The position numbers and the translations under genes were made by a program. Below, piece by piece: positions 15,152 through 17,658 of a stretch of 64,000 nt of DNA. The stretch covers positions 1,798,001-1,862,000 of the forward strand of contig NZ_AP025592.1 of assembly GCF_023169965.1 (NCBI RefSeq). Reading direction: 5' to 3'. The stretch is from Anaeromyxobacter paludicola. GTDB lineage: Bacteria > Myxococcota > Myxococcia > Myxococcales > Anaeromyxobacteraceae. The number at the start of each line of letters is the position of its first letter. The first letter of the stretch is position 1. Below the pieces are notes generated by a model that worked only from the letters and a program-made list of their open reading frames with translations, had not been told where the DNA came from and ran no database searches.

Positions 15152-16339
15152 GTGATCCGACCTCCGCGAACGAACCGCCCGGCCCTGCGCCGCGCCCTGC
15201 CGTTCCTCGCCCTCGCGCTCGGGTGCGCCGCCGCCGGGGCCGTGCCGCGCCCGGCGCCGAAGCCCGAGCCGCCGGGCACCGGCGACCCCGTCGCCCGACC
15301 GATGCAAGTGGCCTGGTCCAAGGACGGGCGTCGGCTCGCGGTGGCGCGGCCGGACGGCGTGCTCCTGCTCGAGGCCGAGACCGGGGCGCAGCGGCTCCTC
15401 CCCGGGCCGGCGGCGCGGACGGTGGACTGGAGCCCGTCGGACCGGCTCCTCCTCGTCGAGGGCGAGGGCGCGGCGCGACGCGCGGTGTCGCTCGACCCCG
15501 CGAGCGGGGAGCGGCGCGAGCTGCGCCGCGGTCCGGCGCTCGCCTCGGCGCGCTGGCTCCACGGCGGCCCCGACTTCCTCGCCGTGGAGGCGGAGCGCGA
15601 GGTGGTGAGCTACGGCACCGACGCGCGGCTCCGGCTGCTCCGCGTCGCCGGCGCGGAGGCCGTGCTCGTGCGGGAGTGGTCGGCCAACCTCCCGACCCGC
15701 GCGCCCGGCGTCGAGCTCGCGGCCGGCTGGGTGGCGGCGGCGCCGAACCCGATCGACGGCGGCCTCGCGCTGCCGGAGCTCCACAAGCCGCCGCTCTTCG
15801 CGGCGCACCTGGCCTTCTTCGGCGTGGACCCGGCCGATCCCGCGCCGGCCGAGGTGGGCCGGATCCCGGCCGCGGTCTGGACCGCCACCTCGAGCTGGTC
15901 TCCCGACGGCGCGCGGCTCGCCTTCGCGAGCGGTGACGGCGCGCTGCAGCTCCTCCGCCGCGACCGCACCGTCGAGGCGGCCCCGGGGCCGGCGCGCGGG
16001 CGGCACCCGAGCTTCAGCCCGGTGGACGACCGGCTCTTCCTCGGCGGCGCCGTCGTGACCGCCCGCGGCGAGGTGATCCGCGAGCTCGTGCCCGGCGCCC
16101 CGGAGTCGCTCGGCGCCTGGTCGCCCGACGGCGCGCGGCTCGCGGTGGTGGAGGGCGGCCGGGTGCTCCTGTTCGGCGGGCTCGATCAGGCGCCGCCGCC
16201 CGCGGTCCGGCAGCGCCGGGAGGCGGCCCGCGAGGCGATCTGGAGGCTCGGCGCGCTGCGCCGGCAGGGGCTCCTCGAGCGGCGGCCCTACGCGCAGGAG
16301 CGGGACAGGCTCCGGCAGCAGGCGGAGGTGGAGCGATGA
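15152..16339 (+). CDS. Beta-propeller lipoprotein with SHOCT-like C-terminal hairpin
   Basis: This 395-aa protein has a GTG start and a lipoprotein signal (LPFLALALGC, Cys near residue 22). The body repeats TolB/WD40-like blade motifs: AWSKDGRRLAVARPDG, WSPSDRLLLVEGE, WSPDGARLAFASGDG, FSPVDDRLFLGG, WSPDGARLAVVEGG. The last 40 residues form a helical hairpin (IWRLGALRRQGLLERRPYA) resembling the SHOCT oligomerisation motif. Its TGA overlaps the ATG of the multihaem cytochrome by 4 bases, so the two are coupled. The propeller may be a scaffold or partner for that cytochrome at the outer membrane or periplasm; this is inference from the overlap and the similar tails. Confidence 0.8.
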   Translation: MIRPPRTNRPALRRALPFLALALGCAAAGAVPRPAPKPEPPGTGDPVARPMQVAWSKDGRRLAVARPDGVLLLEAETGAQRLLPGPAARTVDWSPSDRLLLVEGEGAARRAVSLDPASGERRELRRGPALASARWLHGGPDFLAVEAEREVVSYGTDARLRLLRVAGAEAVLVREWSANLPTRAPGVELAAGWVAAAPNPIDGGLALPELHKPPLFAAHLAFFGVDPADPAPAEVGRIPAAVWTATSSWSPDGARLAFASGDGALQLLRRDRTVEAAPGPARGRHPSFSPVDDRLFLGGAVVTARGEVIRELVPGAPESLGAWSPDGARLAVVEGGRVLLFGGLDQAPPPAVRQRREAAREAIWRLGALRRQGLLERRPYAQERDRLRQQAEVER

Positions 16340-17658
16340 CGGCGATCTGGCTCACCCTGGCGCTCGCGGCGGCCGCGGGCGGGGACCGCAGCGGCGCGGC
16401 GACCTGCCTGCCGTGCCACGAGAAGGAGACCCCGGGCGCGGTGGCGGCCTGGCGCGCCTCGGCGCACGGCCCGCGCTCGAAGAAGCCGGTGGGCTGCGCC
16501 GACTGCCACGGCGCCGACGGCCCGGCGAACCACCCCGCCGCGGGCGCGCGCACCCGCCCGGCGGTGGCGATCGACACCTGCGCCCGCTGCCACGCCCGGG
16601 CGGCGGCCGACCACGCCCGGAGCGACCACGGCAAGGCGATGCGCGCCGGCCGCGGCTGCACCCGCAACCAGGCCTCGACCGGGCCCGAGTGCCTGCTCTG
16701 CCACGAGCCGGGGAGCGCCGCGCCGCGCACCTCGGCCGAGTGCGCCCGCTTCCTCACGCAGAGCCCCGCCATGCAGCGCCAGGGCTGCAACGCCTGCCAC
16801 GACCTCGAGAAGCGCTGCGACGCCTGCCACGGCGCTCACGGCACCTCGGCGGCGGTGGCGCGCGACCCGCTCACCTGCGCCACCTGCCACATGGGGCCGG
16901 ACCACGCGCAGTACGAGATGTGGCGCAGCTCGCGCCACGGCGCGGTCCACGCCGTCGAGGGCGTCGCCCGCGGGCCCGACTGCGTCACCTGCCACATGCC
17001 CGGCCGCTCGCACGACGTGAGCGCCGGGATCACCATGGGGCTCGCCGGCCAGCCCTACCCGCCGGAGCGGCGCGACCGGGAGCGGCAGCGGATGCTCGAC
17101 GTCTGCGCGAAGTGCCACGCCCGCGGCTTCGCGGCCCGGCAGCTCGCCGACGGGGACGCCGTGCAGAAGGAGAGCAAGGCGCTCCTCGACGAGGGCGCCG
17201 CCATCGTGCGACGGCTCGACGGCGCGGGGCTGCTCGAGCCCGCCCCGGCCACGCGCCCGCCCCACCCGCTCTCCGGCGCGAGGCTCGAGCTCGGGCCGCA
17301 GATGCTCTACGAGGACCTCTCCCGCGCCGAGGCCATCTACTTCCGGATGAAGAAGTACGCCTACGTCACCGCCTACAAGGGCGTGTTCCACCAGAACCCC
17401 GACTACGCCCACTGGCACGGCAACGCCGCGCTCAAGCTCGGCCTGTCGGAGCTCCGCAGCGAGGCGGCGCTGCTCGAGCGGCTCCGGCTCCTGGAGCAGC
17501 GGCTCGAGCTCGGCGCCGGGCCGGCCGCGGCCGGGGGCAAGCCTGAGGACCTCGAGCGCGACCTGCGCGCGCTGCGCGAGCTCCGGCTGCGCGGCGAGAT
17601 CGACGCCGCCACGCTCGAGCGGCGGCAGCTCGAGCTGCTGAGGCGCGGGGCGCGCTGA
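16336..17658 (+). CDS. HAO-like multihaem cytochrome c with nine CxxCH motifs
   Basis: This 440-aa exported protein has a signal peptide at residues 1-22 and nine haem c sites: CLPCH, CADCH, CARCH, CLLCH, CNACH, CDACH, CATCH, CVTCH and CAKCH. The segment CATCHMGPDHAQYEMWRSSR and the helical tail MKKYAYVTAYKGVFHQNPDY follow the hydroxylamine-oxidoreductase-like octahaem family, which handles hydroxylamine, nitrite or related compounds; typical members have eight haems, so one is extra. Residues about 400-430 form a SHOCT-like hairpin (LRALRELRLRGEIDAATLE) not expected in HAO. Whether the cross-linking Tyr of true HAO is present cannot be decided by eye. It is coupled to the propeller lipoprotein upstream. 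Confidence 0.88.
   Translation: MTAIWLTLALAAAAGGDRSGAATCLPCHEKETPGAVAAWRASAHGPRSKKPVGCADCHGADGPANHPAAGARTRPAVAIDTCARCHARAAADHARSDHGKAMRAGRGCTRNQASTGPECLLCHEPGSAAPRTSAECARFLTQSPAMQRQGCNACHDLEKRCDACHGAHGTSAAVARDPLTCATCHMGPDHAQYEMWRSSRHGAVHAVEGVARGPDCVTCHMPGRSHDVSAGITMGLAGQPYPPERRDRERQRMLDVCAKCHARGFAARQLADGDAVQKESKALLDEGAAIVRRLDGAGLLEPAPATRPPHPLSGARLELGPQMLYEDLSRAEAIYFRMKKYAYVTAYKGVFHQNPDYAHWHGNAALKLGLSELRSEAALLERLRLLEQRLELGAGPAAAGGKPEDLERDLRALRELRLRGEIDAATLERRQLELLRRGAR

Follow-up and report, generated by a model that had tools for sequence, protein, structure and literature searches.

A conserved pair of overlapping genes for a propeller lipoprotein and a nine-haem cytochrome of the HAO family, with SHOCT-like hairpins at both C-termini

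Introduction

The nearest characterised relative of the cytochrome described here is Kustc0458 of Kuenenia, which has an HAO-like core without the tyrosine cross-link and a partner encoded with it as a gene pair; nitrite reduction by Kustc0458 was reported but has since been disputed (PMC11897245). Absence of the tyrosine, together with a tryptophan at the cross-link position, is the mark of HAOs predicted to be reductive, among them the Campylobacterota Hao, or epsilon-Hao (PMC8940962). OcwA of Thermincola, a nonahaem relative of NrfA and HAO, is a cell-surface terminal reductase, and its authors propose that HAO arose from a nonahaem ancestor by loss of OcwA haem 2 (PMC6703420). OcwA is the only nonahaem relative that turned up in a literature search.

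A second strand concerns SHOCT (PF09851), found on many unrelated proteins and proposed as an oligomerisation domain (PMC3581485). A first-pass annotation of the locus treated here gave the same role. The describers' own size-exclusion test with a reporter protein, however, failed to support self-oligomerisation, and no SHOCT function is demonstrated in the describing paper (PMC3581485).

The locus is in Anaeromyxobacter paludicola, in a stretch of 64,000 nucleotides of contig NZ_AP025592.1 that is termed the window; positions are those of the window.

The gene pair and its distribution

The two genes and the elements that define them are as follows.

15152..16339, plus strand: ORF1, a beta-propeller lipoprotein of 395 amino acids with a GTG start (PD40, E 3.5e-8)
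15152..15237, plus strand: ORF1 signal peptide, an N-terminal hydrophobic stretch with a lipobox-like ALGC (Cys25), as read from the sequence
16336..16339, plus strand: ATGA stop/start overlap of ORF1 and ORF2, four bases common to both genes
16336..17658, plus strand: ORF2, an HAO-family multihaem cytochrome c of 440 amino acids with an ATG start, a signal peptide and nine CxxCH motifs

Related loci were gathered by a related-locus search and by profile searches of 396, 195 and 395 genomes. Both genes are readable in 20 loci, and every one of these has the propeller gene immediately upstream of the cytochrome gene. The four-base overlap reported at first pass is confirmed, in support of translational coupling, and recurs in 18 of these loci; the other two have a one-base overlap. 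A partial cytochrome gene adjoins the propeller at one additional locus (G409), outside this count, and an ORF1 orthologue lies next to every nine-haem HAO that was found. The first-pass annotation was to be given up if the genes proved unlinked elsewhere and neither tail matched SHOCT; the linkage is found at 20/20 loci, and SHOCT matches among orthologues are given below.

The pair spans at least three groups, mostly Nitrospirota, plus a Desulfuromonas-type group and the phylum of the window, and the named records that carry it are from Nitrospirota and one Desulfuromonas MAG. It is sparse throughout. Co-occurrence in other Myxococcota, proposed earlier as a check, is seen in the window's phylum, but the pair is rare there (2/195 genomes) and commoner in Nitrospirota (12/396); the Desulfuromonas phylum has it in 5 of 395 genomes. 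In a tree, the window and its sole phylum-mate (L087) nest among the Nitrospirota members, and because of this nesting lateral transfer of the pair is likely.

The flanking genes in the window, by reading of the open reading frame translations, are aldo-keto-reductase-like, NmrA-like (on the opposite strand) and EamA-like. They seem unrelated to the pair, so that the module appears to consist of the two genes alone. In Pfam scans of 20 neighbouring genes, housekeeping, regulatory and transport functions predominate; no partner gene is shared, and no porin or other conduit gene is conserved near the pair. Promoter and terminator scans detected nothing. The sole neighbour that hints at cytochrome or disulfide maturation is a gene for a DsbC-type disulfide isomerase, directly 5′ of the propeller gene in one Nitrospirota MAG (L036:3953-4738); it may relate to two extra invariant cysteines of the cytochrome.

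The propeller assignment of ORF1 made at first pass is upheld by its predicted fold (AF2 pLDDT 81), whose top Foldseek hits are WD40-type propellers, in addition to the PD40 match. The lipobox claimed with it is in the window the lipobox-like ALGC. Better lipoboxes (LSAC, VVSC, IASC, ITGC) occur in most orthologues; some lack the motif.

The nine-haem cytochrome

ORF2 has exactly nine CxxCH motifs, at residues 24, 54, 82, 119, 151, 161, 181, 216 and 257, which agrees with the earlier count, and it matches PF13447 with an E value of 1.4e-15. Homology to the HAO family covers the whole core, by profile and by structure: PDB matches are 6h5l (E 6e-30), 4n4j and 1fgj, and the top Foldseek hits are exclusively HAO or hydrazine dehydrogenase. 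The core is poorly modelled by AF2 (pLDDT about 60), so haem placement in the model is impossible. When the family profile is aligned to HAO structures, motifs 1-3 fall on HAO haems 1-3 and motifs 5-9 on HAO haems 4-8. The fourth CxxCH, which lies between haems 3 and 4 of HAO, is that of the extra haem. As all eight HAO motifs are kept, with nine motifs present and not eight in HAO order, ORF2 is a variant of the HAO family and not an octahaem HAO. The relevant segments are listed here.

16657..16743, plus strand: fourth-haem segment with Cys108, CxxCH at 119-123 and Cys136, without counterpart in HAO structures
16786..16800, plus strand: CxxCH of the presumed catalytic haem, the fifth motif, which alignment to HAO structures places at HAO haem 4/P460
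16894..16905, plus strand: GPDH motif, putative active-site Asp189-His190, aligned to HAO G-x-D-H
17410..17418, plus strand: His359-Trp360 and residue 361, at the position of the HAO cross-linking tyrosine, with an alignment uncertainty of about 2 residues

Cys108 (in GCTR), the fourth CxxCH (Cys119) and Cys136 (in ECxxFL) are invariant in all 20 family members. The 24 eight-haem HAO paralogues taken from related genomes all lack the GCTR motif. All 20 paired cytochromes have nine haem motifs, and they form a single clade (support 97/93) separate from those 24 paralogues.

The window's genome encodes three different HAO-family proteins. The third (L114), a minus-strand open reading frame at about G000:1173400-1175110, has eight haems and carries a Hao-type Met/Trp signature, SMNAPDYAHW.

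Active site and likely chemistry

Asp189-His190, His359 and Trp360 are each invariant in the 20 nine-haem cytochromes. By this alignment, tryptophan stands where nitrifier HAO bears its cross-linking tyrosine, and ORF2 is most likely a reductase whose substrate would be a nitrogen oxide, namely nitrite, NO or hydroxylamine, or else a small oxyanion of similar kind. The double marker of Campylobacterota Hao is present only in part: the tryptophan is there, but the methionine eight residues before it is replaced by histidine (residue 352) in 20/20 members. No electron donor gene lies within the two-gene module.

Residue 361 is tyrosine in 19 of the 20 members, close enough to the cross-link position for an oxidative enzyme to be conceivable. 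An oxidative HAO acting on hydroxylamine or hydrazine, with Tyr357 or Tyr361 as the cross-link, would draw on this residue, which falls inside the alignment uncertainty, and on hydrazine dehydrogenase as the best NCBIfam match, far below threshold (65.8 of 900 bits). Oxidation is nevertheless quite improbable, in that the window protein alone has histidine at 361 (17416-17418) and the invariant Trp360 aligns with the tryptophan of Hao-type reductases.

The C-terminal tails

Both proteins end in a hairpin.

16199..16327, plus strand: SHOCT-like hairpin at the C-terminus of ORF1, about residues 350-392 (AF2 helices 350-371 and 377-392, pLDDT about 90)
17545..17649, plus strand: SHOCT-like hairpin at the C-terminus of ORF2, about residues 404-438 (AF2 helices 403-418 and 424-438, pLDDT about 84-87)

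The helix-Gly-helix motifs quoted at first pass are thus where they were placed, and the AF2 models give both window proteins the C-terminal two-helix hairpin that characterises SHOCT. The HMM search then proposed has a divided result. Pfam SHOCT matches neither window protein, even at E 10, since the window copy is divergent, but it does match 8/12 orthologous propellers (best E 1.9e-4; best bits 21.5) and 8/12 orthologous cytochromes (best E 1.6e-6). With 28.1 bits, the L036 cytochrome is the one orthologue above the Pfam cut-off of 27 bits. Further matches occur among family members added later. The SHOCT assignment of the tails is therefore one made on orthologues.

Compared by hhalign, the tail profiles of propeller and cytochrome match one another as well (probability 95, E 3.5e-8). 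A family tail HMM was built without the window and tested against shuffled sequences. The ORF2 tail scores 32 bits, a value reached by 0/996 shuffles, which rules out a chance tail or an over-read motif for the cytochrome. The ORF1 tail scores 4.6 bits, reached by 13/989 shuffles; by window sequence alone chance is not excluded in the same way, and homology of this degenerate copy is by position. Identity in the cytochrome tail is 0.34 versus 0.21 in the preceding linker, and dN/dS is mostly low. Tail charges show no consistent pattern of complementarity.

Two other matches were set aside. The cytochrome tail is also hit by gas vesicle protein G (PF05120) in 12/12 members, below its cut-off wherever bits are shown, and this was taken as a generic hairpin match. 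Elsewhere in this genome, a lone weak match to SHOCT falls within the core of another eight-haem HAO and is not a tail, a sign that single weak SHOCT matches can be chance.

Natural losses

Among the 396 Nitrospirota genomes scanned, the cytochrome is found in 12, all of them among the 14 that have the propeller. The two remaining propellers (G160, G302) end before the tail and have no cytochrome gene alongside; they represent one lineage of two related genomes. The converse case is a second pair in genome G424 (L110:2974-5342), whose cytochrome has eight CxxCH motifs and has lost the extra-haem segment, His190 and His359-Trp360. This pair retains the four-base overlap and both tails, which are SHOCT-like by alignment and receive no score from Pfam SHOCT. 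The tail is absent from L019, an eight-haem HAO paralogue of the window's genome, as it is from other eight-haem paralogues. Being absent without the cytochrome and kept in L110, the tails appear to track partnership and not the ninth haem, with each of these small natural tests provided by one lineage. That L110 lost the extra-haem segment together with its active-site residues hints at a catalytic role for the ninth haem in the ORF2 family. The L110 cytochrome itself may be an electron carrier derived from an enzyme.

Related lipoprotein propellers without SHOCT tail or cytochrome are found at L112:2887-3999 and L113:1748-2873, adjoining fimbrial-subunit-like and usher-like genes. A frameshift or stop interrupts the L113 copy. 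Positions L112:1-1479 have CRISPR-array-like short repeats with variable spacers (they translate as GVGKQSPLKYN and LENNRRSST).

L110 bears on the chemistry as well, for it keeps partner and tails without the active-site histidine. This, with the precedent of OcwA at the cell surface (PMC6703420), is what could be expected if the cytochrome were chiefly a surface or periplasmic conduit for extracellular electron transfer instead of an N-oxide enzyme, and the propeller its outer-membrane or surface anchor. Such a function is rather unlikely for the family: the Asp189-His190 and His359-Trp360 regions are invariant in 20/20 members, as a working active site predicts, and no conduit gene is conserved nearby.

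With regard to the tails, it is hypothesized, tentatively, that the SHOCT hairpins are matched docking plugs by which propeller and nine-haem HAO recognise each other. As self-oligomerisation went unsupported in the describers' test, heterotypic docking is the likelier role, although that same test (PMC3581485) also counts against docking, as do the degenerate ORF1 tail and the single lineage of tail-less propellers. The two hairpins could instead be independent and bind a third protein, the membrane or peptidoglycan, or could aid homo-oligomerisation (e.g. of an HAO trimer), the proteins being merely co-regulated. The occurrence of SHOCT on many unrelated proteins fits this, and HAO proteins are trimers, with the tail here coming after the C-terminal helices. 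Independence of the hairpins is held to be doubtful, since eight-haem HAO paralogues, L019 included, manage without a tail, propellers lose theirs where no cytochrome is encoded, and the describers' test does not favour homo-oligomerisation.

Proposed model

From the gene pair, its motifs and tails, their conservation and the clade of cytochromes, a lipoprotein-anchored complex is predicted that probably acts reductively on N-oxides. The propeller would be exported and then lipid-anchored. The nine-haem cytochrome would be exported to the same side of the membrane and held by the propeller, most likely via heterotypic pairing of the C-terminal SHOCT-like hairpins, and the translational overlap would keep the two proteins in step. 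A nitrogen oxide or similar oxyanion would be reduced at the counterpart of HAO haem 4, and the extra haem beside haems 3 and 4 might be an added electron relay or entry point. On balance, a complex of this kind docked via the tails is the favoured reading of the sequences, more so than the strict pairing of hairpins.

Significance

The module is real and conserved: its cytochrome is an HAO-family variant that carries a ninth haem and ends in a SHOCT-like tail, and its propeller lipoprotein has a matching tail. It is apparently undescribed. The earlier statement that no HAO-like enzyme with a SHOCT tail is on record agrees with a literature search in which no paper reports nine haems, a SHOCT tail or a propeller partner for an HAO, and none treats SHOCT together with multihaem cytochromes or hydroxylamine; the search was of accessible papers, with subscription papers mostly outside it, and absence there is no proof.

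SHOCT is widespread in bacteria, and an operon with tails on both products, in which natural losses uncouple the tail from the haem and the tail from the partner, enables a direct test. If the hairpins do act as docking plugs, SHOCT would gain a demonstrated function, and the cytochromes would make up a new subfamily of HAO, with electrons supplied or removed by an extra haem beside the catalytic one. The pair also gives the Nitrospirota and Desulfuromonas-type bacteria an uncharacterised enzyme that probably reduces N-oxides.

Comparison with known systems

The Kustc0457/Kustc0458 complex (PDB 6h5l) is the best match to ORF2 in both sequence and fold. The profile match to 6h5l stops at the end of the solved chain, ahead of any tail. 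Kustc0458 is an octahaem HAO with a dihaem redox partner, Kustc0457, whereas here a nine-haem cytochrome is paired with a haem-free propeller lipoprotein. Campylobacterota Hao shares with ORF2 the tryptophan at the cross-linking tyrosine position (Trp360) and differs in its methionine, for which the ORF2 family has His352, and in that the ORF2 family has nine haems, a tail and no NapC-type partner in the module.

OcwA resembles ORF2 in having nine haems and in belonging to the NrfA/HAO superfamily, but the family profile, searched against PDB at E 1e-3, matches no OcwA chain. Haem 2 of OcwA is the one that HAO is proposed to have lost, whereas the extra haem of ORF2 is between HAO haems 3 and 4. 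The nine-haem clade thus bears on octahaem cytochrome evolution, with its ninth haem at a chain position other than that of OcwA.

SHOCT proteins share with both tails the same short C-terminal two-helix hairpin, with the pattern LKxLxxxGxIxxxEYxxxKxxLL. The describing paper names no cytochrome or propeller among them (PMC3581485); in the pair described here, both partners of one operon carry the hairpin.
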